This document shows positions 1,238 through 16,041 of a DNA stretch of 64,000 nucleotides, one piece after another. The DNA lies in contig JAGOHK010000014.1 in assembly GCA_017996175.1 (NCBI GenBank), positions 1-64,000 of the forward strand. Direction: 5' to 3'. The stretch's first letter is position 1. The number at the start of each line of letters is the position of its first letter. Source of the DNA: Leptospiraceae bacterium. Its GTDB lineage: Bacteria; Spirochaetota; Leptospiria; Leptospirales; Leptospiraceae. Below the pieces are notes generated by a model that saw nothing but the letters and a program-made list of their open reading frames with translations, did not search any database and was not told where the DNA came from. The position numbers and the translations under genes were made by a program.

Positions 1238-1279
1238 TTTGAGATTAACCTAATACCAATGTCTAAAATGTAGTCTGAG

Positions 1280-2575
1280 TTAATGAATTTTTTTAACTTT
1301 GCTATTAACATAATCGGCAAAGTATAGATTTGTCCCGTCCGATGTGATATGGGCAGGACCACTGATTTTTGCAGTAACCCCACTTCCATCCAAATCCCCT
1401 ACCCCAGCATTACCCACAATAGTAGTCACAGTTAAGGTACTGAGAGTAATTTTTCGAATGCGACTAGAAACATCACTCTCAGTAAAAAAAAGGTTAGTCC
1501 CATCACTCACAATTCCATCCATGGACTGAACCCGGGCAGCCGTACCTATACCGTCTAACGTACTACAAGAAACGGTAGGTGGTGGAGAGCCTATAATTGT
1601 TGTAATCGTTCGCCCAGTAATATCTATTTTACGAATGGAACAGTTTGCTCTATCATTCAAATAAAGATAAGTCCCATCAAAAGCTATCGCTCCCGTCGCA
1701 AGTCCAAGTCTACCTGATGCAGCACTTCCATCCGCATAACCATTAATAGCTCCAAGAATCAGAGATATACTATTATCCGCTAATTTAAGACTATTTACTT
1801 TAAAATTTTGATTAAAATACAAAAATGTTCCGTCGGTAGTAATTCCATAAGGATTAGCTAAACCAGAGGCTATCGCTACAACTTCGCCAGTTGAAATATC
1901 CAATTTTCTTATCATACCATTCAATGAATCTGCAATATAGAGCATATTATCGAAATACACTAACCCGCCCGGACCATAAAATGTAGCCGAAGTACCAAAG
2001 CCATCACTAGAACCTGGACTACCACTTCCTGCGATTATGGTAAATGCTCCGGTAGAGATAACTAATTTTGCAATTGTATGATTATCATATACCGCCAAAT
2101 ATATATTAGCCCCATCAGTAGTAATTCCATTTACACCAGTCAATGCAACAGCAGAAGGGATTGTAGTAACTGTCACATCTGCTGGAATTGTATATGGGAT
2201 TGGATTAAATATGGTTCCACCGACCAAAGGACCAGAAGCTGTTCCAACTTGACATACAATATTTACATCTGCTACATTTGTTTGAATCGTACCAGTTCCA
2301 TTTTGAATAACACAATATCTATCCGAAGGTAAAGATTGAATAGCCACAGAATAGGAATTGGATAAAGCTAATTTAGTCATAAATGTAAAATTACCATTTG
2401 TGGTTAGAACTAATTGCTCAGTAGAATTTAGTGAAAGAGTAATACTATTTGAGCCTAATCCAGATAAATTACCACTAACGGTAAACTCTAAACTAATCAA
2501 AGATTTTAGTTTGGGTTCATTCTTAATTTTGCAGCTCATAAATATAATTAAGAATAATAAAAATAAATTCCTCAT
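1280..2575 (-). CDS. NHL-repeat (beta-propeller) lipoprotein
   Basis: The 431-residue product opens with a hydrophobic signal ending in Phe-Met-Ser-Cys (residues 12-15), a spirochaete-type lipobox. About 90 residues of a beta-rich domain (Thr/Ser/Leu-rich) follow. Then come repeated units of roughly 50-60 residues of the type 'GLVYFDNMLYIADSLNGMI' and 'GTNLYFADYVNSKV', typical of NHL/SMP-30-like propeller blades. Such proteins are usually surface or periplasmic and bind ligands or proteins. Leptospira encode several similar lipoproteins. No catalytic motif was seen. Confidence 0.85.
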   Translation of the reverse strand: MRNLFLLFLIIFMSCKIKNEPKLKSLISLEFTVSGNLSGLGSNSITLSLNSTEQLVLTTNGNFTFMTKLALSNSYSVAIQSLPSDRYCVIQNGTGTIQTNVADVNIVCQVGTASGPLVGGTIFNPIPYTIPADVTVTTIPSAVALTGVNGITTDGANIYLAVYDNHTIAKLVISTGAFTIIAGSGSPGSSDGFGTSATFYGPGGLVYFDNMLYIADSLNGMIRKLDISTGEVVAIASGLANPYGITTDGTFLYFNQNFKVNSLKLADNSISLILGAINGYADGSAASGRLGLATGAIAFDGTYLYLNDRANCSIRKIDITGRTITTIIGSPPPTVSCSTLDGIGTAARVQSMDGIVSDGTNLFFTESDVSSRIRKITLSTLTVTTIVGNAGVGDLDGSGVTAKISGPAHITSDGTNLYFADYVNSKVKKIH

Positions 2576-2592
2576 AGAGTCCTCGAATGCCC

Positions 2593-3345
2593 CTAGTTTA
2601 AGCTACAGTAATATCTTAAGCAATCTTTTTTTAAAAAATAATCGATAAATCTATTTACTATTTTAAAAATCCATCGAACCCAATTTCTATTTGTCCATGC
2701 GCGGAATTGAAATTCTAAAAGTTCTTCTCTTAACGAAGAATCATAATACAAAATTTCTTTAAAAAATACGGCTGCATCCAGTGAAATTTTACTTTTTATA
2801 ATTTCATCTGTCATAAAAGCCACCCACTTAGTCGCTTCTACACAATCCATGGTATCATGAACCCAATAAGGAGACATACTAGTCTTTGTATCCATTACCC
2901 GCAGCCCAAACTTTGATCTATTTTTCTCAGAAAGTATGGGGACTTCTGTAACTCTTACGCTAAATACTACTAGAAAATAAAAATCAGGTGGAGCCTCTTT
3001 CATAAACTCCAGTGTAGTTCGAATCGAATTTTCTGTTTCTCCTGGAAATCCTATGATTAAAGAAATAACAGTCGTTAGCCCATGTTTTCTACAATTAGAA
3101 ATAGCCTGCTTATTTTTTTCAGGACTGATTTTTTTATTCATGTTCTGTAGTACAGTCAAGTCTGCCGATTCAATTCCTATTTGCACTTGAATACAGCCTG
3201 ATTTTTTTAATAGTATAACTACTTCCTCCTCGCAAAGATCATCGGCTCTGGCATAACAAATCCATTTAACACGAATATTCCTCTCAATCAGAAGATTACA
3301 AAATAAAATCAGTCTTTGTTTGGGCATTGTAAAAAGAGAATCCAA
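2593..3345 (-). pseudogene. 5'-truncated radical SAM protein remnant
   Basis: The 250-residue frame matches the second half of a B12-type radical SAM protein: a segment of the SAM barrel ('VKWICYARADDL', 'GCIQVQIGIESAD', 'LIIGFPGETENSIRTTLEF') and a C-terminal tail. The N-terminal cobalamin-binding region and the CxxxCxxC cluster motif are absent. Only a TTG (3343-3345) is available as a start, and an in-frame TAA lies just upstream. Without the cluster cysteines it cannot be an active radical SAM enzyme. I therefore call it a decayed gene; expression as an accessory domain is less likely. Confidence 0.75.
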
Positions 3346-3488
3346 ACAAGTGATTTAATTCGATGCTCTAACCATTCGTGACTTGCATAACTAGATTTTG
3401 CAAATTGCTTTTTTAAAAAACTGGAAAAGGTAGATTTATCATCAATTAAAAAACTTCCCGTAACTACTAAGACCTTTTTTTCTTTCAT
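3309..3488 (-). CDS. Short ORF abutting the truncated radical SAM gene
   Basis: An ATG at 3486-3488 opens a 59-residue frame beginning MKEKKVLVVTGSF. It runs into the 5' end of the truncated radical SAM gene in a different frame and stops at TGA 3309-3311. The first residues resemble the first beta-strand of a Rossmann or B12-binding fold, but the rest matches nothing I know. It may be the N-terminal scrap of the gene whose middle was deleted. The ribosome binding site is weak. Confidence 0.3.
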   Translation of the reverse strand: MKEKKVLVVTGSFLIDDKSTFSSFLKKQFAKSSYASHEWLEHRIKSLVWILFLQCPNKD

Positions 3489-3568
3489 AATCTTTTTTTG
3501 AAATAAAATCCTATTTTGTCAAGATAACAAACTTGCAATTGTAGAGAGTTTTTTATTCATATAAAAGA

Positions 3569-4537
3569 ATGGCTTTATTTAGTAGACTTCTACGAACAGA
3601 ACTTCTAGAAAAAGGAATCGACGAATTTAAACTTTTAGAAGAGGGTAAAGGCGAAATACCAAACCTAGCCTTTGAAGACCTAACACATGAAATTCTACGT
3701 GAGTTTGTAAAAGAAAAAGGGATTGGACTTACTACTTCTCTACTCTACAATAAATTATTGTACAAATCTAAAAGCTCTGAATTCATCAGAAAATTAGATT
3801 CGATTGAGCCCCATTTAACCAATCTCCCGAAGCTCTCCGGCAAATTACTAATAGCCCCTTCTGGGTTTTACAAAGAACTTCCAGAATACGCAGGGGATGG
3901 AAGTCTTGTTATGGAAATTGCCAATCAATTTGGACTGAACTCCGAAATCATACCAGTTAATACTAAAGGTTCCATCACAGAAAATGCAAACGTCATTGTA
4001 GAGTATTTAAAAAAAGAGCCATCGGATAGAATTATTATTTTTTCTTTAAGCAAGGGTGGCTCTGATTTGCTTCTTGCACTTGAGGCAGCGCCGGAATTAC
4101 AAAAGAAAATTTTAGTCTGGGTTTCTTTCTGTGGAATTTTTAAAGGCACACTCCTTGCCGATCAATTTCTTTCTAAAAGAGGAATTCGAAAATGGTTACA
4201 GGATGGAATTTTTAGAACTCTCGGAATAACCCGTGAATTTCTCCCAGAATTTTCTTATACGAAAGGAGTTCTTGCTAAAGAGGTTACACTTCGTTTGCCG
4301 AATGTTATCAGCGTAATTGGAGTTCCAATAGAATCTCATCTGCGCGGAAATCTTTTACGTAGATTTAGAACACTTTCTCCAAACGGTCCGAACGATGGAA
4401 TCTCTCTTCATCTAGATTCGATTTTACCTGAATCCAAAATCTATCCTGTTTGGGGAGCAGACCATTACTTTCGATTTTCCGGTATCTCCAAGTTGATTTA
4501 TAAAATCTTTTATTATATTGAAGAGCTGGAAAAATAA
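3569..4537 (+). CDS. Alpha/beta-hydrolase-like protein, unknown substrate
   Basis: The product has 322 residues and no signal peptide. Around residues 150-175 the sequence 'RIIIFSLSKGGSDLLLAL' resembles the nucleophile elbow of lipase-like alpha/beta hydrolases (strand-Ser-x-x-Gly-Gly-helix). A late His in 'WGADHYFRF' could complete a triad. The elbow reads S-L-S-K-G-G rather than classic G-x-S-x-G, so the assignment is tentative. The 3' end overlaps the frame of the Rieske oxygenase gene, so the two are probably co-translated and may act on the same substrate. Confidence 0.65.
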   Translation: MALFSRLLRTELLEKGIDEFKLLEEGKGEIPNLAFEDLTHEILREFVKEKGIGLTTSLLYNKLLYKSKSSEFIRKLDSIEPHLTNLPKLSGKLLIAPSGFYKELPEYAGDGSLVMEIANQFGLNSEIIPVNTKGSITENANVIVEYLKKEPSDRIIIFSLSKGGSDLLLALEAAPELQKKILVWVSFCGIFKGTLLADQFLSKRGIRKWLQDGIFRTLGITREFLPEFSYTKGVLAKEVTLRLPNVISVIGVPIESHLRGNLLRRFRTLSPNGPNDGISLHLDSILPESKIYPVWGADHYFRFSGISKLIYKIFYYIEELEK

Positions 4538-4538
4538 A

Positions 4539-5450
4539 TTGAAATCTTTTCCCTCCTCATGGTATTTTATAGCGAGTAGTAATGAAATTACCCGCAACTC
4601 TATTTTTCGATTAGAAATTTTTGAAAACTCTTTAGTCTTTTTCAGAAATAATAAAAATGTAGTAGTAGCATTGGACTCGAGATGTTCTCATCTAGGTGCT
4701 GACTTAGGAAACGGATTTCTAGATAAGGATAACTTGGTTTGTCCTTTGCACCATTGGAAATACAACAGTATGGGTAAATGTACATATACCACAGCGTCTA
4801 ACGTTGAACATTTTTCGCAAAAAACATTTCCAGTAGTAGAAGAGTTTGGTTCTGTTTTTGTTTTTCTGGGAGATGAGTTTTTTTCTTTCCCGGAGTTTGT
4901 TTTTAAGAAAGATTTTGTCTATGAGGCACTTCCAGAAGTCACTTTAAATACTACTTGGGAGACATTAGGGGCAAATGGGTATGATACGCTACATCTTTCA
5001 GTTGTTCATAAACGAGGTCTTCTGGAAAAGCCAATCTGTAGTTTTCCCGAAAAACATATTTTCAAAATGCAAACCAAAGCATTTGTAGAAGGAAATGAAT
5101 TTTCCGATAAAGTGATAAAGTTTTTGTCTAAAAATAAAATTTCTGCGGAGATTACATCTTTCGGTGGCGTCTTTATTACATTGGAATCCACTTTAAACAA
5201 AAAGAAGAGTCTACTCCTTGTATTCCTCCGTCCCGAAAAGGAAAATGTAAAGGTATACGCAATCGCTGGGATTCGAAAGAAAAATAAATTCCTGGATTAT
5301 TTTAGAAAAAAAATCTCCTCTTTTTTATTTCAAAAATTTTTATTCAAAGATATTATCCCCTTACAAAATATGAAACTTCGCCGCGAAAATCTTGCACTCG
5401 ATCCAGTTTTGAAATTGTACGATGAATATTTAAAGAATTTAGGATTTTAG
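4539..5450 (+). CDS. Rieske-type non-heme iron oxygenase alpha subunit
   Basis: This is an aromatic-ring hydroxylase or demethylase type oxygenase. Near the N-terminus is a complete Rieske [2Fe-2S] site (CSHLGADL ... CPLHH; C-x-H plus C-x2-H). Further on, NGYDTLHLSVVH supplies the Asn-x2-Asp-x2-His-x4-His mononuclear iron motif. A TTG at 4539, just after the stop of the preceding gene, is the most natural start; an in-frame TTG at 4518 is the alternative. About 303 residues is short for the family. No reductase or ferredoxin is adjacent, so electrons must come from elsewhere. The substrate is unknown. Confidence 0.88.
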   Translation: MKSFPSSWYFIASSNEITRNSIFRLEIFENSLVFFRNNKNVVVALDSRCSHLGADLGNGFLDKDNLVCPLHHWKYNSMGKCTYTTASNVEHFSQKTFPVVEEFGSVFVFLGDEFFSFPEFVFKKDFVYEALPEVTLNTTWETLGANGYDTLHLSVVHKRGLLEKPICSFPEKHIFKMQTKAFVEGNEFSDKVIKFLSKNKISAEITSFGGVFITLESTLNKKKSLLLVFLRPEKENVKVYAIAGIRKKNKFLDYFRKKISSFLFQKFLFKDIIPLQNMKLRRENLALDPVLKLYDEYLKNLGF

Positions 5451-5504
5451 GTTTGAGAAGAACAAAGTTCTGTTCGATATAATGATTGATCCTACTAGTT
5501 TAAA

Positions 5505-5599
5505 TGTCATCCCGAAACTTGCACTGAGCCTGTCGAATGTGTTTTCAGTCGGGGATCTGTAGAAATTGAGATTCCCGACAAAAGAACTCGGGAATGACA
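5505..5599. repeat. REP-like imperfect inverted repeat
   Basis: The element begins TGTCATCCCGA and ends TCGGGAATGACA, so its ends are near-perfect inverted complements about 95 bp apart. Internal TCGGGGATCT and GATTCCCGA pieces can also pair. Elements of this 'GTCATCCCGA...' style occur between genes in many bacteria. It lies just upstream of the PAP2 gene and creates a false upstream start for it. Confidence 0.6.
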
Positions 5600-5655
5600 A
5601 CCCAAAAATCTTGTCGAATTGTTTTAATTTTCCATTTCGAGCTTATAATAAAATT

Positions 5656-6309
5656 ATGAAATTTCCCTCTAAAAAAGAATTTATCGCTTACGCAAAACTC
5701 TATTTTCTCCTCTCAATTCTATTTACCCTAGTCTATGGCTTTACGAATTGGTTTACGCAATATAGAGAATGGAAATTGCATTTATATTTCGACTTCGAAC
5801 TGGGAATTCCATTTATTCCTGAATTTATTTTTATTTATTTTTCTATAATGCTTTTATTCTGGAGTCCGATTTTTTTTCTAGAGGAAAATGCTTTTTATCC
5901 GCTTGCTAAATCTTTTTGTTTTGCGACCGTCATTGCCGGTTTACTCTTCTTAGCCCTTCCTGCCGAACTTGGATTTAAAAGACCAGAAAAAGTTTTAGGT
6001 TTTGAAACAATCTACTCCCTACTCTACCAATTGGAACTTCCCCATAACCTAGTTCCATCCTTGCATATAACCTACAGTTTCCTCCTTTCGTTTTGGAATC
6101 TTGCCTATTCCAAAAATAATGTTTGGAAATTCGTATTCGCGGTATGGTTACTTCTTATTTGCCTCTCTGTTTTATTTGTGCATCAACATCATATTTTAGA
6201 TATTTTCGCAGGGATTCTTCTAGCGCTCATAAGTTTCCACATATTCCACTCGTGGGAGGGGCAAAGGAGGAGTATCCGTATTGAGTCTAGGTCCAGTCCA
6301 GAGTCTTAA
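5656..6309 (+). CDS. PAP2-family membrane phosphatase
   Basis: This is a multi-pass membrane phosphatase of the PAP2 superfamily (phosphatidic acid, undecaprenyl-PP or inositol-phospholipid chemistry). About five or six hydrophobic segments are visible. Two signature motifs are present: 'PSLHITYS' (PSxH) and 'VFVHQHHILDIFAG' (Hx4-6D). The frame is open upstream to 5566, but that part lies inside the REP-like element. The ATG at 5656, which directly precedes the first membrane segment, is the better start, giving 217 residues. The last 90 bases overlap the end of the convergent desaturase gene. Confidence 0.88.
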   Translation: MKFPSKKEFIAYAKLYFLLSILFTLVYGFTNWFTQYREWKLHLYFDFELGIPFIPEFIFIYFSIMLLFWSPIFFLEENAFYPLAKSFCFATVIAGLLFLALPAELGFKRPEKVLGFETIYSLLYQLELPHNLVPSLHITYSFLLSFWNLAYSKNNVWKFVFAVWLLLICLSVLFVHQHHILDIFAGILLALISFHIFHSWEGQRRSIRIESRSSPES

Positions 6310-7158
6310 GTACTGCCAGAAATAACCGATTGGTTTGATTACCTTATTTTGGAGCCCCTCTTCTTTTAAATAAATCCAAGGTAGGGCAGGTTTTAGATGA
6401 TGTTCATAATCCCAATTTCCATTTAAAAGTATTTTTTCGAATAGTAAACTCGCTTTTAGATTATGTGCTCCTTCTACTACATCTCGCTTTGTAAACGCAT
6501 GAGTGATATACTGTCTAGTAGACCAGTTGAATGCAAAACATAGATAGAGAACTAACGTCTGCTCCCAATGAAGTCCTACAACAAAAAATAAAAAGCACCA
6601 GAATAAAATTCCAAGAATAGTTTCCTCTCGAATATGTCTTACATCTTTTGGTTTCATGTCTTCAAACATGATATTAGAACTTTTGATTTCTTTTACCAGT
6701 TTTAAGTTGATTACATTTGGATAGAGGGAAAGTAGAATCGGTCCAACAGGAACCATAAACCAAAACCCACCAAGTAAAACTAAATACCAGCGCAAAATCT
6801 GTATATACTTGAACTGATTTTCATAATAACAATCGAACATTTCATGGTCTGTTCTGTTACAACAATGGTGTTTAATATGCGTTATCTTCACCATACTAAA
6901 AGAAGTTGGGAAGAGTAATCCGGCTAATACTCCGTAAACTCTATTCCATTTTGGGTCTGCGTGCAGATTCAAATGGGTAGCTTCATGAAGGAGTGCATAC
7001 GATGTTAAAAGTAAGAAGGAATATCCAATTCCTATCGGAAAAGAGTAAAGGAGTGGTAGTTTGGATGCTGTGATTAATATAGCTATGCTCCAGAAAAATA
7101 CTGTTAAGGTTAGAATTGCATTCAGCCTTACTGGGATTGGATATTTGTTTTCTTCCAT
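6220..7158 (-). CDS. Membrane fatty-acid desaturase family protein
   Basis: The product is an integral-membrane di-iron desaturase or hydroxylase. The histidine boxes HEATH, HIKHH and DYEHH are present in order, separated by paired membrane helices. The open frame extends upstream to 7275, but the ATG at 7156-7158 is preceded by a strong AAGGAAAG site, and the extra 39 codons run through a palindromic repeat; I therefore start at 7158 (312 residues). It probably introduces a double bond or hydroxyl into an acyl or carotenoid-like chain. The C-terminus overlaps the PAP2 gene tail to tail by 90 bases. Confidence 0.9.
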   Translation of the reverse strand: MEENKYPIPVRLNAILTLTVFFWSIAILITASKLPLLYSFPIGIGYSFLLLTSYALLHEATHLNLHADPKWNRVYGVLAGLLFPTSFSMVKITHIKHHCCNRTDHEMFDCYYENQFKYIQILRWYLVLLGGFWFMVPVGPILLSLYPNVINLKLVKEIKSSNIMFEDMKPKDVRHIREETILGILFWCFLFFVVGLHWEQTLVLYLCFAFNWSTRQYITHAFTKRDVVEGAHNLKASLLFEKILLNGNWDYEHHLKPALPWIYLKEEGLQNKVIKPIGYFWQYLRLWTGPRLNTDTPPLPLPRVEYVETYER

Positions 7159-7180
7159 TGTTAAATTCTTTCCTTTAAAT

Positions 7181-7210
7181 AGTAGGGGTTGAATATATTC
7201 AACCCCTACT
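7181..7210. repeat. 30-bp perfect palindrome of the GTAGGGGTTGAAT family
   Basis: Bases 7181-7210 (AGTAGGGGTTGAATA and its exact complement) form a perfect palindrome. It is followed by two copies of ACTCGTAAAAT. It sits in the 5' leader of the desaturase gene. The same core (GTAGGGGTTGAAT/ATTCAACCCCTAC) recurs at 32552-32645, so this is a dispersed repeat family rather than a site specific to one gene. Confidence 0.85.
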
Positions 7211-7303
7211 CGTAAAATATCGACTCGTAAAATGTTCAAAATTTCAATCGCAAAAGTGAAAATTCTTATATACAAAAAAATGCGGGAATCTTAAAAATAA
7301 TCT

Positions 7304-7882
7304 ATGATACGACTCCTACTATTTTCTTTTTTAATTTCACTTCTATTTTTCGTAAATCCAATTTTCTCGGAAGAAAACGCTGAGATTCACAATGAACTTA
7401 GGGCTTTTAAACAAAGTCTGGAAAAATCTTTCAACGAGGAAAATATTGATTCCCTTGTATCTCACCTGCACCCTAATATTGTAGTCACCTGGCAAAATGC
7501 TACTACCACTCGCGGCAGAGAAAACACAAAAAAATACATTGAAAAATTAATCAAAGGTCCAAATAGCATAGTTCAAAAATTCAAAACCTCTATCGACGTA
7601 GATGAACTTACTATTTTATACGGAGAAACCGGCGTTTCCTTTGGAAGCTCTGTTGACTATCTGGAATTACGCGAAGGAATTTCCCTCGACTTAAAAGAAA
7701 GATGGAGTGCAACTCTAGTCAAAGATAAGGGCAAATGGTATATAGCCTCTGCTCATATTTCTGTAAACCTTTTCGACAATCCAGTATTATCCTCTGCAAA
7801 GAATACTCTCTACTGGGCAATCCCACTTGCTCTTCTAATAGGTTTTTTAATCGGGTTCGTATTTCGCTCTTTGAAAAAATAG
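7304..7882 (+). CDS. SnoaL/NTF2-like secreted protein with C-terminal anchor
   Basis: The product has 192 residues: an N-terminal signal sequence (residues 1-22), a soluble domain, and a hydrophobic tail with a GxxxGF pattern ('IGFLIGFVF') followed by Arg and Lys residues. The soluble part looks like an NTF2/SnoaL-type cone fold: 'NEENIDSLVSHLHPNIVVTW' is typical of a first helix and strand, and 'LKERWSATLVKDKGKWYIASAHIS' of the last strands. Such domains bind small ligands or are enzymes. Its stop is 1 base before the next gene, so it may lead the radical SAM operon. Confidence 0.7.
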   Translation: MIRLLLFSFLISLLFFVNPIFSEENAEIHNELRAFKQSLEKSFNEENIDSLVSHLHPNIVVTWQNATTTRGRENTKKYIEKLIKGPNSIVQKFKTSIDVDELTILYGETGVSFGSSVDYLELREGISLDLKERWSATLVKDKGKWYIASAHISVNLFDNPVLSSAKNTLYWAIPLALLIGFLIGFVFRSLKK

Positions 7883-7883
7883 A

Positions 7884-9215
7884 ATGAAGATAACGCTAAT
7901 TTCTCCCAAAGGTCCATTGTATAAACATAAAACTGGAATTTTTAGAAAAGACTTACGGGCTTCCCCACTAACACTGACTACGTTAGCCGCTCTAGTTCCC
8001 AAAGAATTGAATGCCAAGATTGAAATCTATGATGAAGGTATTGAGGATTTGCCTCCTAATTTAGATTCAGACCTAGTAGGGATGACTGTAATCACTGGCT
8101 CTGCTCCTCGATCGTATGAACTTGCAAAACAATTTCGTTCGAATGGGATGAAAGTGGTTCTAGGCGGTCCCCATGTTACACTCTTACCCGAAGAAGCTAT
8201 GTTACACGCAGATGCGGTAGTTACCGGTTATGCGGAAGAAACCTGGCCTGAGTTACTTAGAGACTTTTCAATTGGAAAATTAAAATCCCGTTATGACATG
8301 AGCCATAGCTTTTCACTTGAGAGAAAGGAAAATCTTCCCTTTGCCAGAAGAGACTTACTCAGGAAAAATTCTTACAAGACTACTTATACATTTGAGGCTA
8401 CTCGTGGTTGTGTGCATAATTGTGAATTCTGTGTTGTGCCCACTGCCTGGGGAAGAAAGCCCTACCAAAAACCAGTCTCTCATATTATAGACGATATACG
8501 TCAGCTTGGTGCAAAAAGGCTTTTATTCTATGATTTAAACTTAATTGCAAACAGAGCTTACGCCAAGGAACTATTTACCGCACTCATTCCTTTAAAAGTA
8601 AAATGGGTCGGACTTGCGACTACCTTACTGGGCAAAGATGACGAATTATTAGAATTAACCGCTCGAAGCGGATGCAAGGGAATGCTTTTGGGTTTTGAAA
8701 GTATATTTCCTGATACTCTCAAATTAAATAACAAATCCTTTAACGACCCGGAACAATATGCAGAGATTATAAAGAAATTGCAAAAAGTAGGAATTGCAAT
8801 CAATGGGACTTTTGTATTTGGAAATGATACCGACACAAAAGATTCTTTTGATGCAGTTCGAGATTTTGTTCTCACAACTGGAATTGACCTTCCCCGTTTT
8901 TCCATTCTAACTCCATTTCCACGGACTCCGCTTTTCCAACGACTCGAAAAAGAAAATCGAATCATCGAACGAGATTGGAGTAAGTATGACGGACAACACG
9001 TAGTATTCGCACCCAAACAAATGACCGCAGATGAGCTAATGCGCGGGCATGAAAAAGTCTGGAAAGATGTATATTCATATAAAGGAATTTTTAAACGAGT
9101 ACTACAAAATTTTATGACTCCGATTTTTCCAATTGTAGTCGGGGCTAATATTGCTTATAGGTATTATGCATTTAACCTGTCTCGTTTTTATACTTGTAGA
9201 GGAGGATTCATTTGA
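7884..9215 (+). CDS. B12-binding radical SAM enzyme (first of tandem pair)
   Basis: Residues 1-130 form a cobalamin-binding Rossmann-like domain ('VGMTVITGSAPRSYELAKQF', 'VVLGGPHVTLLPEEA'). The SAM barrel follows, with Cys176, Cys180 and Cys183 (RGCVHNCEFC) for the 4Fe-4S cluster. The C-terminal region resembles DUF4070-type tails. Members often methylate unactivated carbons or do B12-independent radical chemistry on lipids and natural products. The start is one base after the previous stop, and the end overlaps the next gene by 4 bases. No His is seen at the usual DxHxxG position, so cobalamin would bind base-off. Confidence 0.92.
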   Translation: MKITLISPKGPLYKHKTGIFRKDLRASPLTLTTLAALVPKELNAKIEIYDEGIEDLPPNLDSDLVGMTVITGSAPRSYELAKQFRSNGMKVVLGGPHVTLLPEEAMLHADAVVTGYAEETWPELLRDFSIGKLKSRYDMSHSFSLERKENLPFARRDLLRKNSYKTTYTFEATRGCVHNCEFCVVPTAWGRKPYQKPVSHIIDDIRQLGAKRLLFYDLNLIANRAYAKELFTALIPLKVKWVGLATTLLGKDDELLELTARSGCKGMLLGFESIFPDTLKLNNKSFNDPEQYAEIIKKLQKVGIAINGTFVFGNDTDTKDSFDAVRDFVLTTGIDLPRFSILTPFPRTPLFQRLEKENRIIERDWSKYDGQHVVFAPKQMTADELMRGHEKVWKDVYSYKGIFKRVLQNFMTPIFPIVVGANIAYRYYAFNLSRFYTCRGGFI

Positions 9216-10588
9216 GGATAACATTAATTCACCCTTGTATTGGTCGAATCCCTGGCAAAAAGTACATTCGTGGTTGGCAGATGGAACCGCTCCCTGCCGC
9301 TCACTTAGTTGGGTTAACTCCAAAAGATATTGATGTGAAATTTTATGACGATAGAATGGAAGAAATTCCATATAACGAAAAAACCGACTTAGTCGCAATC
9401 AGTGTCGAAACCTATACCGCAAAACGATCTTACCAAATCGCAACTGAATACCGCAGACGTGGAATTCCAGTCGTCATGGGTGGGTTTCATCCTACGCTTA
9501 TGCCAGACGAAGTTTTAGAATACGCAGAGGCAATCGTAATAGGAGAAGCGGAAAGTTCCTGGCTCGACTTAATTTCTGATTTTAGAGAAGGGAGATTAAA
9601 ACGAATCTATAAATCAGACAAACGACCGGATATAACATCTGTTAGCCCCGACAGATCCATCTTTAAAAATAAAAACTATCTTCCTATCGGGTTAATCGAA
9701 GCAGGCAGAGGTTGTACTTTTAAGTGTGATTTTTGTGTGATACAGACTTATTTTAGCTCAACGCAAAATCATCGCGGTATACAGACGATTATCCATGAAA
9801 TTTTATCTCTTAAAAAAACAAAAAAACTTTTTTTCTTCGTAGATGACAATATTGTGTCTCACCCTAAAGAAGCAAAAGAACTATTTCGCGCGCTCATCCC
9901 TCTCAAAATTCGTTGGGTAAGCCAAGCTGCCATCACGATGACTCATGATGAAGAACTTCTTTCTATCATGAAAGAAAGTGGATGCCAGGGTGTTCTTATC
10001 GGTTTCGAGTCATTAAACGCTGAGAACTTACTCAGTATGAACAAATCTTTTAATAATCTAAAAGGTGGCGCGCAGGGAGCGATTGACAGGCTGCATAGAT
10101 TTAATCTCAGGTTATATGCTACTTTTATTTTTGGATACGATGGGGATACTCTTGATTCGTTTCAAAAGACTATTGACTTTTGTATTTCCAATTCTATCTT
10201 CATGGTTGCGTTTAATCATCTTACTCCGTTTCCAGGAACTCCTCTGTATAAACGACTCGAAGAAGAAGGAAGGCTTTTATACGACAAATGGTGGTTAGAC
10301 GATAGATATGCTTATGGGCAAGTTCCATTTAAAACTGTAATTCCACCCGATACAATTAAAAAAGAATGTGTGAGAGCGCGAAAAGAATTCTATGGATTTA
10401 AATCTATATTCAAAAGGATTTTTCACAAAACAAACTCGGGGAACTTTTTTATGCTACGAGCTTACCTATTTATCAATCTACTTCTAAGAAGAGAAGCTAC
10501 AGAAAGAGAAGATTATCCGCTTGGCGATAGAGCATTCAAAGGGGAATTGTTAAAAGTAAAAAATCTTGTAGAGCATGAGCCGCGTTAA
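9212..10588 (+). CDS. B12-binding radical SAM enzyme (second of tandem pair)
   Basis: This is a paralogue of the preceding gene with the same architecture: cobalamin domain ('VVMGGFHPTLMPDEVLEY') and radical SAM core (RGCTFKCDFC; Cys168, Cys172, Cys175). The TTG start overlaps the previous TGA (TTGA) and has a strong GGAGGA site, so translation is coupled. The two copies differ substantially across the substrate-facing barrel, which suggests successive or different steps rather than redundancy. The end overlaps the GNAT gene by 14 bases. The substrate is unknown. Confidence 0.92.
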   Translation: MRITLIHPCIGRIPGKKYIRGWQMEPLPAAHLVGLTPKDIDVKFYDDRMEEIPYNEKTDLVAISVETYTAKRSYQIATEYRRRGIPVVMGGFHPTLMPDEVLEYAEAIVIGEAESSWLDLISDFREGRLKRIYKSDKRPDITSVSPDRSIFKNKNYLPIGLIEAGRGCTFKCDFCVIQTYFSSTQNHRGIQTIIHEILSLKKTKKLFFFVDDNIVSHPKEAKELFRALIPLKIRWVSQAAITMTHDEELLSIMKESGCQGVLIGFESLNAENLLSMNKSFNNLKGGAQGAIDRLHRFNLRLYATFIFGYDGDTLDSFQKTIDFCISNSIFMVAFNHLTPFPGTPLYKRLEEEGRLLYDKWWLDDRYAYGQVPFKTVIPPDTIKKECVRARKEFYGFKSIFKRIFHKTNSGNFFMLRAYLFINLLLRREATEREDYPLGDRAFKGELLKVKNLVEHEPR

Positions 10589-11687
10589 AATTTTAAAAGC
10601 AATTTTAGAGGATAATGAAGGTTTGCTGGAATTTCTAAAAGAGAATCCTTCACCAGGGTTAATTCAAATTCAGCTAGACCGTACTCCTTCCTACTTCGAT
10701 TCGATTCGAGTGGAAGGTTTTCCAAGTGATGTGATGATTGGAAAAGAAACGAATACCGGAAAAATCGCAGGCGTAGGAAATCGAAGTGAAAAAAATTGTT
10801 TTGTAAATGGAAAACCAGAACAGTTAGGTTATCTAAGCACACTTAGAATTAAAGAGGAATATCGAAATTCTATTTTTTTAGTAAAATCCTATAACTTTTT
10901 AAAAGAACTCCATAAAAAATCAAAAGTAAAATTTTATCTAACGACTATACTCAAAGAAAATAAATTAGCCCGGGCTATTTTGACTTCCAAGAGAGCTGGT
11001 TTGCCTATTTATGAAAGTATTGGATTTTATCATACCTATATTATTTCTAAGAATCAAAAAATCAATACTGCGAATAATAATTATTCAGTGCAGGTTGCAA
11101 AAGAAGAGGAGATAACGGATATTATCCTTTTTTTAAATTCTTATGGCAAGGAAAAACAATTTTTTCCAATCTACACGAAGGAAGATTTTTTAAATAAAAA
11201 TACTTTATTAAACGGAATTCAAATTAGCGATATTCTAATTGCCAGAGAAAAAGGAGAAATCGTAGGAGTTATTAGTTTATGGAAGCAAAATTCTTTTCGA
11301 AAATGGATTGTAAAAGATTACGAACCGATTTTGAAATATTCTAGACGGATTTACAATATCTATGCTTATCTAATGAGAAAACCAGTATTACCCGCTCTTG
11401 ACACTGAATTCAAATACCGGTTTCTATCCACTGTAACCATAAAAGATAATAATTCCGAAGTATTTAAAGCCTTACTCAATGTTGTCTGGAGTATTCTAGA
11501 TCAAAAGACAGATACAGATTATTTAGTCGCAGGTTTTCATGAAAAAAATACGATAGGCGATGTGGTAAATCAATTTCCGCATTGGAAGATCACAAGTGAA
11601 GTTTTTGTTGTCTATTGGGAAGAAGAAAAACAAGATATTCCAGATTTTAGAAATGGAATTCCTTACTTGGAAGTTGGCTCTCTATGA
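10575..11687 (+). CDS. GNAT-like protein, probably two acetyltransferase-fold halves
   Basis: The product has 370 residues. The first half has GNAT character: 'GYLSTLRIKEEYRNSIFLVK' resembles the acyl-CoA-binding strand and helix, and 'ARAILTSKRAGLPIYESIGF' the C-terminal 'N-x-x-A-x-x-x-Y-e-x-x-G-F' element. The second half repeats a weaker version ('DILIAREKGEIVGVISLW'). It probably transfers an acyl or aminoacyl group to an amine made in the pathway. Its ATGA overlap with the next gene shows translational coupling. The donor and acceptor are unknown. Confidence 0.7.
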   Translation: MSRVKILKAILEDNEGLLEFLKENPSPGLIQIQLDRTPSYFDSIRVEGFPSDVMIGKETNTGKIAGVGNRSEKNCFVNGKPEQLGYLSTLRIKEEYRNSIFLVKSYNFLKELHKKSKVKFYLTTILKENKLARAILTSKRAGLPIYESIGFYHTYIISKNQKINTANNNYSVQVAKEEEITDIILFLNSYGKEKQFFPIYTKEDFLNKNTLLNGIQISDILIAREKGEIVGVISLWKQNSFRKWIVKDYEPILKYSRRIYNIYAYLMRKPVLPALDTEFKYRFLSTVTIKDNNSEVFKALLNVVWSILDQKTDTDYLVAGFHEKNTIGDVVNQFPHWKITSEVFVVYWEEEKQDIPDFRNGIPYLEVGSL

Positions 11688-12412
11688 AGCAGCTAACGGC
11701 AAGTAAGCTTCTAATCTCAGACCTAGAAGAATTTCAAATCCTAGAAATGTTCTCTCTTATGGAAAACTATTACAACCATGTGAGCATTTCCCAATTTAAA
11801 AAAGACCTTTCCGAAAAAGATATTCTTATCCTCCTAAAAGATTCCTCAAACCAAATACAGGGTTTTTCTAGCCAAAAAATATTTTCCTTTCAATATAAAA
11901 ATCAGAGTTTACGAATTGTATTTTCTGGAGATACTGTAATTCATAAAAATTTTAGAGGTAGCCTTGAGCTTCCGATTGCGTGGGGGAAATTTATGTTGGA
12001 AGTAGAATCTAACTTTAAGGAAGATCCTCTTTACTGGATGTTAATCACCAAAGGAATTCGAACGTTCCGTTACCTTCCTGTATTTTTTTACGAATTTTAT
12101 CCAAATCCTTATACACCAATTCCAGAATCCATTTCAGATCTTCGTCACACACTTGGACTTTTTAAATTCGGGAATCAATATGACAGAATAAGCGGTATTA
12201 TTCGCGGCAAAGAAGATTCCCAGTCGATAAAAGAATTAGAAGAAGATGAAGAATTTATCCTAAACCGAAGTTTTGATCCCTATATAGATTTTTTTAAAAA
12301 CAGGAACCCCGGTTTTGGGAATGGAGATGAATTACTATGTTTAACTAGGTTTACCCGAAAGAATTTACGTCCATTTATCGTACGCGCTTTAGAAAAGGAA
12401 AATAAAAAATGA
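11684..12412 (+). CDS. Unknown protein in radical SAM/GH3 operon
   Basis: The product has 242 residues, is soluble, and has no signal peptide. The N-terminal part has the alternating pattern of a GNAT-like fold ('IVFSGDTVIHKNFRGSLELP' resembles the core strand and CoA loop), but conserved residues are not clear. It overlaps its neighbours by 4 bases on both sides (ATGA), so it is firmly part of the operon. It is possibly a diverged acyltransferase or a partner of the preceding GNAT-like protein. Confidence 0.75.
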   Translation: MKQLTASKLLISDLEEFQILEMFSLMENYYNHVSISQFKKDLSEKDILILLKDSSNQIQGFSSQKIFSFQYKNQSLRIVFSGDTVIHKNFRGSLELPIAWGKFMLEVESNFKEDPLYWMLITKGIRTFRYLPVFFYEFYPNPYTPIPESISDLRHTLGLFKFGNQYDRISGIIRGKEDSQSIKELEEDEEFILNRSFDPYIDFFKNRNPGFGNGDELLCLTRFTRKNLRPFIVRALEKENKK

Positions 12413-14043
12413 AACCTCTACAGTATTTATCTAATAGTATTTGGAAAATTATTTCAAAAAGTAAATTTGATAAATTTATCATTGCTTCGAGTCAAGTGTC
12501 CTTAACGCAAGAGAAATATCTTTTAGATCTTTTAAAGCGAAATCAAAATACCAGTTATGGTAAACGTTACAATTTTAAAGCATTTCGAAACAGTAAAGAT
12601 TACCAAACAAAAGTGCCAATAACTGAATATGAGGATTACAGGCATTATCTAGAACAAATTCGAGACGGAAAAAAAAATATACTAAGCTCTGATCCATTTC
12701 TTAGATTTACACTGACAAGTGGCACAACCAGTTCCTCTAAATGGATTCCGTATAACGTTAGTTTAAAAAAAGAATTTGAAGAATCTATCGGGACTTGGGT
12801 TTATAATTTATTTGAAGTTTATCCAGAATTGCTGAATGGAAGCGCATACTGGTCAATATCTCCTATTTTAAATGAGGAAAAATATGACTCTAAAATTCCT
12901 GTCGGATTCGAAGAAGACTCTTCTTATTTCGGTTTTCTAGAACGATTTTTAGTTAATTCTATTCAAGCAGTTCCGGCTTTGGTATCTAAGATTTCTAACT
13001 TCGATGATTTTAAGTACGTTACTCTTCTTTTTTTACTCTCCGATTCAGAGCTTCGTTTGATTTCTGTATGGAGCCCAAGTTATCTTAAAATACTTTTAGA
13101 CTATTATAAAGAAAAATCTGATTCATTGCTAAATGATTTAGAAAATGGTACAATCTCAATTAATATCGAACAGAAATTTAAAAAAAAACTTCTTTCTAAA
13201 CTCCGAAGAGACCCCAAACGTGTAGAGTATTTAAAAAAGATTTCTAAGGGGAAACATATTTCATGGGAACAAGTCTGGCGACATCTAACATTAATTAGCC
13301 TCTGGACAGACGGTAATTCCAAATTATTTCTCCCTGAAATCCAAAAGTTATTCCCGAATACTAAAATCCAAGGGAAAGGATTATTATCCACGGAAGGATT
13401 TATTACTTTTCCATTCCATTTGAATGATTTTTTCGGTAATGTGCTTGCAGTCAATTCGCATTTTTTTGAATTTAGAGAAATTGAATCTGGAAAAGTATAT
13501 CTAACAAATGAATTAAAGATGGATTCTATTTATGAAATTATACTTACGACTGGTGGAGGATTATATCGTTATGCCACAAAAGATAGAGTTCAATTAACCG
13601 GATATTATAATCAGGTTCCAAACCTAAGTTTTTTAGGTAAGCAAGAGACGATCTCAGATCTTGTTGGAGAAAAATTAAGTGAACAACATTTACAGCAAGT
13701 TTTAAAATCAGAATTCAAAAAGTTTAAAATTAACCCTGAATTTTATTATGTTAAACCAGTGATTAACGAAAATGTAGGTACATATATTTTATTTTTAGAA
13801 ACTTTAAATAATTACAATAAGAAAAATTTAGCCAATTCAATTGATTCGCTTTTAATGGATAATATCTATTATGCTCATGCTCGCGAGGCTGGGCAACTTT
13901 CAAAATTTCAAATAGAATCTCTACCGAATGATTCCATGAAGGAATACCTTGAATCAAAATCTAAACGTAATCTTATCGGAACAACTAAACACTCCTTATT
14001 TCATCATAAAACCGATACAAAAAAAGATAACAAAATGCTGTAA
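12409..14043 (+). CDS. GH3-family acyl-adenylating amide synthetase
   Basis: GH3 proteins adenylate a carboxylic acid and couple it to an amine or amino acid; plant members make auxin and jasmonate conjugates. The 544-residue length is typical. The phosphate-binding motif LTSGTTSSSK is at residues 102-111, and the YRYATKDR motif (386-393, equivalent to YRxGD) is present before a C-terminal lid domain. It ends the operon and overlaps the convergent ceramidase-like gene by 59 bases. Bacterial GH3 substrates are poorly known. The operon suggests it joins a radical-modified product to an amine, or activates an acyl group for the GNAT proteins. Confidence 0.9.
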   Translation: MKPLQYLSNSIWKIISKSKFDKFIIASSQVSLTQEKYLLDLLKRNQNTSYGKRYNFKAFRNSKDYQTKVPITEYEDYRHYLEQIRDGKKNILSSDPFLRFTLTSGTTSSSKWIPYNVSLKKEFEESIGTWVYNLFEVYPELLNGSAYWSISPILNEEKYDSKIPVGFEEDSSYFGFLERFLVNSIQAVPALVSKISNFDDFKYVTLLFLLSDSELRLISVWSPSYLKILLDYYKEKSDSLLNDLENGTISINIEQKFKKKLLSKLRRDPKRVEYLKKISKGKHISWEQVWRHLTLISLWTDGNSKLFLPEIQKLFPNTKIQGKGLLSTEGFITFPFHLNDFFGNVLAVNSHFFEFREIESGKVYLTNELKMDSIYEIILTTGGGLYRYATKDRVQLTGYYNQVPNLSFLGKQETISDLVGEKLSEQHLQQVLKSEFKKFKINPEFYYVKPVINENVGTYILFLETLNNYNKKNLANSIDSLLMDNIYYAHAREAGQLSKFQIESLPNDSMKEYLESKSKRNLIGTTKHSLFHHKTDTKKDNKML

Positions 14044-14698
14044 GGATATGCCAAATAGCGTGTCCTTGTAAAATATGATTTTCTGGATCACATATAATTC
14101 TTTTGAAATCTAAAATCCAAATTAAAAAAGCAATAATAAAGCAGGAAATAGCAAGTAGAAAATTTCGATAGTAAACAAATGAAAAAGATTGATGGGCTGA
14201 CCTAAGTGATTTTTCCCTACGAAAAATTTTAAATTCTAAGAAAATAGCGGTTACTAAGTGTAAGCCGAAAATAAAAACTCCTATACTCTTAAAAATAAGA
14301 AGAAGGGACATGGAAAAAAAGATTAGAACAATAAATATATAGAATATTTTTTTATCATTAATTCCATTTAATCTATGCCAATTTAAAACAACTAAAAGAG
14401 AAGAAAAAAAATACATCGAAGACAAATCAAAAAATTGAAAAAGAAAAGTAAAACTTGCATGATATAAAAAAGAAGCAATACCAGTTAGGATGGCGGCTAT
14501 CGGAAATAAAACTAGATAAGTAGGCGTGTTACCCTTTTTCTTAAAAAACAAATAGGACCCAATAATGATATAAGCGATATTCGACCATGTATTAGCTGGA
14601 GTTGTAATGTAAGAGCAAAGATTTCTCTCGCAAAACTGCATAGTTGGTGGTAAAAAATTAGACCAAGGGCAATTTAAAGGAAGTAATTCAATTGTCAT
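13985..14698 (-). CDS. Alkaline-ceramidase-like (CREST) membrane hydrolase
   Basis: The product is a seven-helix membrane protein of 237 residues. The pattern TPANTWSN (33-40), Ser76 and His80 in SFLYH, Asp91 in DLSSMY, and His213 and His217 in HAIWH matches the zinc site and family motifs of alkaline ceramidases (in human ACER3: Ser77, His81, Asp92, His217, His221). The family hydrolyses the amide of ceramides or related acyl amides. It lies tail to tail with the GH3 amide synthetase. Whether the substrate is a sphingolipid or another acyl amide cannot be told. Confidence 0.85.
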   Translation of the reverse strand: MTIELLPLNCPWSNFLPPTMQFCERNLCSYITTPANTWSNIAYIIIGSYLFFKKKGNTPTYLVLFPIAAILTGIASFLYHASFTFLFQFFDLSSMYFFSSLLVVLNWHRLNGINDKKIFYIFIVLIFFSMSLLLIFKSIGVFIFGLHLVTAIFLEFKIFRREKSLRSAHQSFSFVYYRNFLLAISCFIIAFLIWILDFKRIICDPENHILQGHAIWHILTAFCYLFLYRFYDEIRSV

Positions 14699-14844
14699 AT
14701 CACAATTGAATTTTCATATTCAAAAAAAACAAGAATTCATTTATACCCCTTTTGTGAAACATAAAATTACCAACATCTTGGGAAAAAGAAAAGTTTTGAT
14801 TGTAAAATTTATGGCAGAATAGTTTAAAGTTAAGTAAGGTATCT

Positions 14845-16041
14845 ATGGATAATTCTCTTTTTAAAATCGTTAATTTTAGCCCTGGTTCTTACATCACTCT
14901 AGAGGGAGAAAGAAAAACAGCAACCCAATTCTATATCATAAAAGATGGAAGAGTTAATTTACAAAGAACATTTCCTGTAGCCAATGAAAAATCTAGCGAA
15001 GTAATCGGTCCTGGAGATTTTTTTGGAGTAATTGCGGCTATGAGTCAATATCCGCAAATTGAATCTGCGATTGCAATGACAAATGTTACACTCATCGCAG
15101 TTGGTCAAAATCGGTTTGGAGAATTAATTCAAAAAAATGCAGCACTTGCAATGAAAATCATTCGCTTTTTTTCAAAAAAACTAAGAGACTTTGACCAAGG
15201 ACAATCCAACAAAACCGTAGGCTCCAAAGTAACAGGAGAAGAAGATTTAAGTTTACTCTTTTCTATGGCAGAAAATTATTTTTTACAAGGGAATATGGAA
15301 AGCGCTGTCTACCTTTACCAGAGTTATATAAAATACGTCCCGAAGGGCGAGTTCACAGCAAAGGCAAAAGAAAAACTAAAAACATTAGGCAAACCCTTAG
15401 AAATGCAAGCGTTAAGTGGGGCAAACAGAAGTTATACGCAAAACCAAATGATCTTCAGTGAAAATGAACCAGGACACGATTTATTTATTCTCCAAAAAGG
15501 AAAAGTAAAAATCACTAAAATCATTAAGGAAAATGATGTACTTTTAAATATAATGAAGCCGGGAGATATTTTCGGTGAAATGGCACTTCTTGATAATAAA
15601 CCTAGATCTGCATCTGCGATTGCAATGGAGGATGTAGATTTACTTGCAATCAATAAAACAAATTTTGAGTCAATGGTTCAAACTCAACCACAACTCATGA
15701 GTAAAATTATCACAGTTCTTTCTGAGAGAGTTTGGAACGCATACAAAAAGATTGCCAACGCAATGATTGAAGATATCAACGGTCGAATTGCAGATATGTT
15801 ACTTACACTAGTAGAAAAAAACCGTGTAAAAATTGCTCCCAAAGCAGATTATAATTTTCAAATTGGGATATTCGATCTTTTAAAAATGCTCGGTCTCACA
15901 GATAGAGATACAAATTTAATCATGAAATTTATGACAAATAATAAATTCATTCATCTAGATGGAGAAACTCTTATTTGTTCTGATTTAGCATTACTCGATC
16001 GTTTAGTTCACTATCATAAAGAAGGCAAACGTAAAAACTAA
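14845..16041 (+). CDS. Protein with two cyclic-nucleotide-binding domains
   Basis: The product has 398 residues. A first CRP-type cNMP domain lies at about 1-120 ('VIGPGDFFGVIAAM'). A TPR-like helical linker is at about 140-190. A second, better-conserved cNMP domain is at about 205-315, with the phosphate-binding cassette GDIFGEMALLDNKPRSASA. The C-terminal 80 residues resemble a degenerate CRP effector region without a clear DNA-recognition helix. The second pocket looks competent for cAMP or cGMP; the first lacks the Arg-Ser pair. Two class III cyclases elsewhere in the window could supply the ligand. The stop overlaps the convergent GGDEF gene by 4 bases. Confidence 0.9.
   Translation: MDNSLFKIVNFSPGSYITLEGERKTATQFYIIKDGRVNLQRTFPVANEKSSEVIGPGDFFGVIAAMSQYPQIESAIAMTNVTLIAVGQNRFGELIQKNAALAMKIIRFFSKKLRDFDQGQSNKTVGSKVTGEEDLSLLFSMAENYFLQGNMESAVYLYQSYIKYVPKGEFTAKAKEKLKTLGKPLEMQALSGANRSYTQNQMIFSENEPGHDLFILQKGKVKITKIIKENDVLLNIMKPGDIFGEMALLDNKPRSASAIAMEDVDLLAINKTNFESMVQTQPQLMSKIITVLSERVWNAYKKIANAMIEDINGRIADMLLTLVEKNRVKIAPKADYNFQIGIFDLLKMLGLTDRDTNLIMKFMTNNKFIHLDGETLICSDLALLDRLVHYHKEGKRKN

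Follow-up and report, generated by a model that had tools for sequence, protein, structure and literature searches.

A mobile gene cluster pairing two B12-binding radical SAM enzymes with GNAT-fold proteins and a GH3-family synthetase recurs across bacterial phyla

Introduction

Five plus-strand genes between positions 7884 and 14043 of a Leptospiraceae contig (JAGOHK010000014.1, assembly GCA_017996175.1) are joined by successive overlaps of 4, 14, 4 and 4 nt, and raise the question of whether they serve a single pathway and, if so, what that pathway might make. A sequence-only reading had described them as two diverged cobalamin/radical SAM enzymes, a double-GNAT protein, an unknown protein and an acyl-adenylating GH3 enzyme, and had proposed radical methylation or rearrangement followed by acyl/amide coupling. 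We revisited the locus within the window, that is, the whole 64,000-nucleotide stretch of DNA analyzed here, and in other bacterial genomes. The genes are referred to, 5' to 3', as R1 and R2 (radical SAM), A (tandem GNAT), N (single GNAT) and G (GH3).

Results

Gene layout and extent of the cluster

All five ORF positions and the four overlaps were confirmed. The set is larger than the five genes originally described, as a SnoaL-like gene lies directly 5' of R1, its stop codon ending at 7882, 1 nt before the R1 start, and genes that recur with the cluster are found upstream back to 3569. The coupled operon is thus one of six genes starting at 7304, and the functional unit extends upstream to at least 3569. 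The TTG start codon of R2 is preceded by TAGAGGAGGATTCAT. Scanning for promoters and terminators was uninformative, yielding 49 and 8 sites versus 40 +/- 6 and 8.5 +/- 3 in shuffled sequences. The features are as follows.

1239..14005, no strand: inserted segment of 12.8 kb, from comparison with the same-genus genome G002
3569..4537, + strand: abH, alpha/beta-hydrolase-like protein of 322 aa, typed by eye without a Pfam match; relatives near the cluster in L038, L041, L059 and L060
4518..5450, + strand: Rieske1, Rieske non-haem oxygenase of 310 aa with a TTG start (Pfam Rieske 3e-18; iron-ligand motifs)
5656..6309, + strand: PAP2-family membrane phosphatase/phosphotransferase (Pfam PAP2 4e-10; ORF open from TTG 5566, ATG at 5656)
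6220..7158, - strand: FAD, FA_desaturase-superfamily di-iron membrane oxygenase/desaturase (Pfam FA_desaturase 3e-19; ORF open from TTG 7275)
7304..7882, + strand: SnoaL-like protein bearing a hydrophobic segment at the C terminus; the coupled operon starts with this gene (SnoaL_3 3e-5)
7884..9215, + strand: R1, B12-binding radical SAM enzyme (Pfam, motifs, tree clade)
9212..10588, + strand: R2, B12-binding radical SAM enzyme with a TTG start and a strong ribosome-binding site (Pfam, motifs, tree clade)
10575..11687, + strand: A, tandem-GNAT acyltransferase-like protein (AlphaFold model and Foldseek; profile matches GNATs only)
11684..12412, + strand: N, single-GNAT-fold protein without a Pfam or NCBIfam family (AlphaFold model and Foldseek)
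12409..14043, + strand: G, GH3-family acyl-adenylating amide synthetase (Pfam GH3/GH3_M/GH3_C)

Rieske1 bears the iron-ligand motifs CxH-X17-CxxH and DTLHLSVVH and also occurs in the operons of L062, L101, L107, L019 and L073. PAP2 is found in-operon in L062, L107 and L112, and the desaturase-like gene in L062, L101 and L107. SnoaL relatives are present at 16 of the 85 loci compared here (see below), and an alpha/beta-hydrolase gene lies near five of them.

Predicted folds and motifs of the core proteins

R1 and R2 each combine Radical_SAM, B12-binding and DUF4070 Pfam domains (E 2e-15/9e-11 for R1 and 6e-15/2e-10 for R2) with an intact CX3CX2C cluster motif, starting at residue 176 in R1 and 168 in R2, and intact GGxHxTxxPxE loops. 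Both are hence assigned to the B12-binding radical SAM enzymes and predicted to bind cobalamin and a 4Fe-4S cluster; sharing 38% identity, they are the sole pair this close in the genome, and the original description of two diverged enzymes of this type holds. The two proteins score far under every NCBIfam cut-off (BchE, HpnJ, PhpK, HpnR, TIGR04072 and any named B12-radical SAM equivalog), their top curated match being BchE, at 84 and 94 bits versus a cut-off of 481, with weak matches also to the methyltransferase families PhpK, HpnR and TrpM-type and to CysS and TsrM-type structures. Because BchE scores so far below its cut-off, homology does not give the reaction type of R1 and R2. When 129 radical SAM sequences were placed on a tree, the R2 clade took in 44 of the 46 encoded directly upstream of A and the R1 clade 31 of the 35 placed second upstream, a topology in which R1 and R2 resolve as two old clades that have kept their gene order.

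Neither A nor N has a match in Pfam. The AlphaFold model of A (pLDDT 95) most closely resembles CaNAT, the tandem GNAT MAB_4324 and N-myristoyltransferases (NMTs) among PDB structures (Foldseek E ~1e-12), and a profile search with A returned GNATs only, bearing out the double-GNAT description. N, which had been called an unknown protein, indeed belongs to no Pfam or NCBIfam family and found no match when its sequence was searched against the PDB, yet its model (pLDDT 95) adopts a GNAT fold similar to AAC(2')-Ia and NMT (Foldseek E ~5e-6). Residues D41, K45, S81-G-D-T84, W118 and T127 of N are invariant in an alignment of 64 sequences. Based on these models, A and N are predicted members of the GNAT fold and putative acyltransferases, their top matches being GNAT members only (probability 1.00). 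The presence of GNAT folds beside a GH3 enzyme suggests acyl transfer from CoA or a carrier protein.

Enzymes of the GH3 family convert a carboxylic acid to its adenylate and form an amide from it. As had been proposed, the fifth gene encodes a complete protein of this family, with N, M and C domains (PF03321, 185 bits; PF23571, 59 bits; PF23572, 32.5 bits; cut-offs 23.6; E 2e-54) and intact nucleotide-binding motifs (TSGTT at 103, STEG at 327, YRY at 386 and the conserved D392). A GH3 profile search matched plant GH3.12 and JAR1 at E 1e-43.

Conservation of the gene set across phyla

A profile scan with the N family over 84,980 species genomes returned 296 matches, the best 80 of which came from at least 15 phyla, as assigned from record titles, many of them of metagenome-assembled genomes for which single assignments may be wrong. 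They include Calditrichia, Bacteroidales, Omnitrophota, Kiritimatiellae and other Verrucomicrobia, Planctomycetes, Riflebacteria, Desulfobacterota and Spirochaetia; Anaerolineales, Clostridiales, Bacillaceae, Acidobacteria groups, Elusimicrobia and Nitrospirae; and Melainabacteria, cyanobacteria, Fibrobacteria, Acidimicrobiia and many Pseudomonadota. Culturable carriers are found in Sulfitobacter algicola, Novosphingobium, Burkholderia, Parachitinimonas and, on a plasmid, Citrobacter.

With the addition of five loci from the window's taxonomic order, these 80 make up a set of 85 loci in which N lies near GH3 in 70, near A in 64, near both in 63 and near an R-family radical SAM gene in 58; since the loci were found through N, counts of N are conditioned on it, and many of the contigs are cut. 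The contiguous order R-R-A-N-GH3 was kept in 20 loci and N-GH3-R-R-A in seven. Across 33 loci, the gene distances for A, N and GH3 co-vary (r 0.46-0.72; null maxima 0.28-0.29), and those for R1 and R2 follow the other genes more weakly (r 0.24-0.48; null maxima 0.28-0.43 overall). The search of Leptospiraceae and other phyla thus recovered the order in dozens of unrelated genomes, and the genes are clustered, not scattered, where relatives carry them.

Insertion of the cluster in one piece

Positions 728-1238 and 14006-16041 of the window align, at 80% and 77% identity, to a single contiguous stretch of G002 in which the MsrA and ceramidase genes are separated by 8 nt. The neighbors shared with G002 are genes for a methionine sulfoxide reductase (window 728-1237), a ceramidase (13985-14698) and a cyclic-nucleotide-binding protein (14845-16041), and genome G003 has the same flanks without the cluster between them. 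N, A and GH3 were missing from the same-genus and same-family genomes searched. By this alignment, the 1239-14005 segment represents a clean 12.8-kb insertion, horizontally acquired as one piece; loss in the relatives is less likely, because all same-family genomes searched are devoid of the cluster. The segment carries a DUF6923-like gene and a radical SAM fragment, followed by the alpha/beta-hydrolase-like, Rieske, PAP2, desaturase-like, SnoaL, R1, R2, A, N and GH3 genes.

No direct repeats or tRNA genes were found framing the insertion borders. Base composition is silent on a recent transfer, the GC content of the segment (0.349) equaling that of the window (0.349). The ceramidase gene, considered as a pathway member with sphingolipids in mind, was rejected, as it occupies the same place in cluster-free G002 and is not found again at any of the other cluster loci.

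Mobility is evident from a plasmid of Citrobacter portucalensis that harbors N, GH3, R, R, GNAT, R, R, PAP2 and SnoaL in one run; this plasmid cluster had no match in the E. coli genomes searched. The spread is patchy, as the cluster is carried by 11 of 349 Burkholderiales genomes (about 3%), and Sulfitobacter algicola provided the only close match among 346 Rhodobacterales genomes (0.3%).

Alternation of the radical SAM pair with a Rieske oxygenase

Two roseobacters and Novosphingobium (L062, L107 and L101) encode N, GH3, R, R, A, SnoaL, Rieske1 and the desaturase-like protein in one direction, with PAP2 next in the run of both roseobacters, and thus carry the same parts as the insertion in the window. 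At other loci that are missing R1 and R2, a second, VanA-type Rieske oxygenase (Rieske2) adjoins the core, taking the place of the R pair in L041, L073, L019 and L142, often together with a 900-residue protein that combines an RnfD/NQR2-like membrane part with FG-GAP and UnbV domains. The ligand motifs CxH-Xn-CxxH and D-x2-H-x4-H were intact in the six Rieske1 and Rieske2 sequences checked, placing both in the Rieske oxygenase family.

Rieske2 was present in none of 57 loci with R and in 16 of 26 without (Fisher 1e-10, a test that ignores kinship, so that part of the signal is relatedness). Eight newly sampled Burkholderiales loci comprised six with Rieske2, none with R and two with neither within 20 kb. 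Of the 91 loci that yielded an N sequence, 57 had R, 21 had Rieske2 and none had both, and the N tree shows four or more switches; a sign test on phylogenetically independent pairs was not significant, there being too few pairs (about four independent switches). At a threshold of 1e-40, R1 and R2 were found nowhere in the genomes carrying Rieske2 (G013, G021, G027, Burkholderia, Parachitinimonas and Tahibacter), and were present in G000, G025, Sulfitobacter and Novosphingobium. Both states occur inside the window's order, G025 bearing the radical SAM form and G013, G021 and G027 the Rieske2 form. R1 and R2 therefore appear to have been swapped for an O2-using Rieske enzyme in some aerobes.

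A third variant, found in cyanobacteria, Tahibacter, Accumulibacter and some Burkholderiales, comprises an AurF-like oxygenase, a ferredoxin, a fatty acid hydroxylase and Rieske2. The sole curated match of the cyanobacterial hydroxylase is the ornithine lipid hydroxylase OlsE, under cut-off, and A is absent from the whole genomes of Tahibacter and the cyanobacterium. At the Acinetobacter baumannii locus (L111), N, GH3, TolC and GNAT genes directly follow EmrA-EmrB, with an amidase of the indoleacetamide-hydrolase type (563.7 bits versus a cut-off of 532) and without an oxidative enzyme in the vicinity. The parts shared by every variant are N and GH3.

Discussion

The cluster encodes what we take to be a real, conserved and mobile pathway, apparently undescribed. 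A description of such a cluster did not turn up in the open-access literature searched on GH3 combined with radical SAM, GNAT or Rieske, on UnbV with Rieske and on the Acinetobacter locus, in agreement with the earlier statement that no characterized pathway with this set is known. Amide-forming pathways for lipids or metabolites are known as a kind; the composition of this one and its anaerobic/aerobic exchange are new.

As an explanation of the whole, we favor, at an even chance of being right, an acquired cassette for an acyl-amide, aminolipid-like metabolite in which R1 and R2 perform an oxidation without O2. The carboxylic acid that G would adenylate is probably a fatty acid, and the amine to which G would couple it is probably an amino acid; A and N would either transfer further acyl groups or bind the donor of these groups. 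R1 and R2, acting sequentially or as a pair, would modify the carbon skeleton by an O2-independent oxidation such as a hydroxylation, a dehydrogenation or a ring formation, a step for which the related cassettes of several aerobes may use the VanA-type Rieske oxygenase, with its electron supply, and O2. The optional module made of SnoaL, Rieske1, the desaturase-like protein, PAP2 and the alpha/beta-hydrolase, which is present in the window, may add O2-dependent tailoring at the membrane. The window organism keeps R1 and R2 alongside these O2-dependent tailoring genes. The product would be related to, and distinct from, that of the OlsH ornithine-lipid route. The acyl/amide coupling proposed earlier fits the GH3 precedent of OlsH (PMC12493201); that its product is a lipid or a small molecule is something we infer.

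The balance tilts toward a lipid-like product, because the membrane-type PAP2, the desaturase-like protein and the fatty acid hydroxylase recur. The alternative that the product is a secreted small molecule (a signal, a metallophore or an antibiotic-like acyl-amide) and not a membrane lipid is the most serious competitor, one that we hold possible though doubtful. The very patchy spread and the plasmid-borne copy are typical of specialized metabolism, and since N, GH3, TolC and GNAT follow EmrA-EmrB in A. baumannii, where an amidase accompanies them, a secreted compound is likely in that species; at the other loci, in contrast, the cluster is not accompanied by any conserved exporter, regulator or immunity gene, and membrane enzymes recur instead.

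It is unlikely, to our minds, that R1 and R2 are C-methyltransferases adding methyl branches, with Rieske2 marking another product class and not a substitute for the pair. Several of the families that they weakly match are methyltransferases, as noted above, and the exclusion of Rieske2 rests on few switches. Their top curated match, BchE, is not a methyltransferase, however, and Rieske2 replaces the pair beside the same core genes, and a Rieske oxygenase is unable to methylate. If the Rieske oxygenase that alternates with the pair is its substitute, R1 and R2 most likely oxidize without O2, as BchE does, and the radical methylation or rearrangement of the sequence-only reading is accordingly the less likely chemistry.

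That the cluster simply represents OlsH-type ornithine-lipid synthesis seems improbable. OlsH is a planctomycete GH3 enzyme that makes a lyso-aminolipid (N-acyl-ornithine) from fatty acids and ornithine (PMC12493201). It is the single NCBIfam match of G (NF052613), and a GH3 gene shares one unit with an alpha/beta-hydrolase gene in Singulisphaera (PMC12493201) as it does in the window. The match, however, scores 49.8 bits versus a cut-off of 620 and is confined to residues 10-117, so that G fails as an OlsH lyso-ornithine lipid synthetase; the best OlsH score in five cluster-bearing planctomycete genomes was 64.5 bits against the same cut-off. OlsG is absent, the alpha/beta-hydrolase is missing near most loci, and the description of the OlsHI pathway makes no mention of radical SAM, GNAT or Rieske genes (PMC12493201). 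Finally, the view that the genes are merely adjacent or co-transcribed, which could appeal to the frequency of overlaps in compact genomes, is refuted by the comparative data and can practically be discarded, since the identical order in dozens of unrelated genomes shows that the grouping is not due to chance, and the co-varying trees and the insertion of the whole 12.8-kb set argue, as does this order, for one functional unit.

In a broader reading, to which we would give slightly less than an even chance, a widespread and so far unrecognized class of bacterial acyl-amide lipids or metabolites is made, with or without O2, by one mobile cassette existing in anaerobic and aerobic forms, namely with the paired B12-radical SAM enzymes, with Rieske and the RnfD/FG-GAP/UnbV protein, or with the AurF-like oxygenase and fatty acid hydroxylase. 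If true, an orphan pathway found in at least 15 phyla among the best 80 matches would yield a new class of bacterial metabolite, two of its five core proteins (A and N) having no named family. The alternation of the R pair with Rieske2 is a natural experiment, in that comparing the products of both variants would reveal the role of the radical enzymes.

Comparison with known systems

A, like CaNAT, MAB_4324 and the N-myristoyltransferases, consists of two fused GNAT folds (~370 residues), whereas N has one GNAT fold, extended by additional helices at its C terminus; both differ from these proteins in sharing only 9-15% identity with them and in lacking a Pfam or NCBIfam family. The family TIGR04072 (rSAM_ladder_B12, lipid biosynthesis) likewise ties B12-radical SAM enzymes to lipid gene clusters, but R1 and R2 score 65 and 70 bits against its 360, and the condensing-enzyme and ACP genes of those clusters are absent at the window locus. 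OlsH-OlsI of Singulisphaera acidiphila (PMC12493201) offers a bacterial GH3-family acyl-amide synthetase in an operon with lipid-linked enzymes, and an alpha/beta-hydrolase-like gene lies nearby in the window too; the two GNAT-fold proteins, the two B12-radical SAM enzymes and the oxygenases have no counterpart there.

BchE is the anaerobic Mg-protoporphyrin oxidative cyclase, for which an O2-dependent counterpart exists. R1 and R2 resemble it in their B12-binding/radical SAM domain order, in their CX3CX2C motif and in the alternation of an O2-independent enzyme with an O2-dependent one in other organisms, and differ from it in being two dedicated paralogues encoded beside GNAT and GH3 genes, with no porphyrin genes nearby. 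If our reading is correct, the pair would be a further case, after BchE, of an O2-independent step replaced by an O2-dependent one.

Ends of the inserted segment

Besides the pathway genes, two further genes were found within the inserted segment, the stretch of the window that is extra relative to a same-genus genome:

Window 1280-2575, minus strand: repeat-rich protein with a weak DUF6923 match
Window 2593-3345, minus strand: C-terminal half of a B12-type radical SAM gene

The first is placed between MsrA and the pathway genes. The product of the second is a distant relative of sequences of the R2 type, R2 being one of the pathway's paired radical SAM genes (best E 3e-15), and the CX3CX2C part was absent from every frame upstream; the gene is probably a decayed extra radical SAM copy. 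At the other end, the gene for the GH3 amide synthetase and the ceramidase gene of the host overlap tail to tail, the shared stretch being the final 59 nt of the GH3 gene (window 13985-14043). Because the insertion border, 14006, falls within this overlap, approximately the last 12 GH3 codons are host sequence.

Related loci in other genomes

Loci in other genomes (L-numbers) included the following:

L112 9962-20627: complete cluster that includes four to five radical SAM genes, Citrobacter portucalensis plasmid NZ_CP134684.1
L111 4192-15900: single run of genes, Acinetobacter baumannii NZ_CP064203.1
L022 9436-11061 and L023 9176-10795: second GH3 gene of each of these two Leptospirales genomes
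L019 13870-16572, minus strand: fusion protein, adjoining the Rieske2 variant
L091 9977-19503: third-variant gene set (cf. Phormidesmis)
L138 10814-12916 and L067 7268-9385: amidohydrolase-like protein of ~700 residues in the third variant, adjoining gene N and PAP2

The Citrobacter plasmid is mobilizable, of the IncFIB/IncFII type, and came from a gull. The Acinetobacter run, in which no radical SAM gene was found, reads LuxR-type regulator, indoleacetamide-hydrolase-type amidase, EmrA, EmrB, gene N (single GNAT fold), GH3, TolC, tandem GNAT and SurE-like; its sequence, of 3.97 Mb, is labelled a plasmid. The second GH3 genes of the two Leptospirales genomes lie in a different conserved context, with neighbors typed by eye as methyltransferase-like, sterol-desaturase-like and mandelate-racemase-like.

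Beside the Rieske2 variant, whose loci carry a VanA-type Rieske oxygenase and lack the radical SAM pair, the fusion protein (~900-970 residues; L019, L041, L066, L073, L087, L103 and L142) joins an NQR2/RnfD-like membrane domain to FG-GAP repeats and UnbV/ASPIC, and is perhaps the electron donor of this variant. Third-variant loci (L091, L094, L067, L080, L106, L138 and L139), devoid of the tandem GNAT, combine gene N and GH3 with an AurF-like oxygenase, a small ferredoxin, an OlsE-like fatty acid hydroxylase, a hexapeptide protein and Rieske2.
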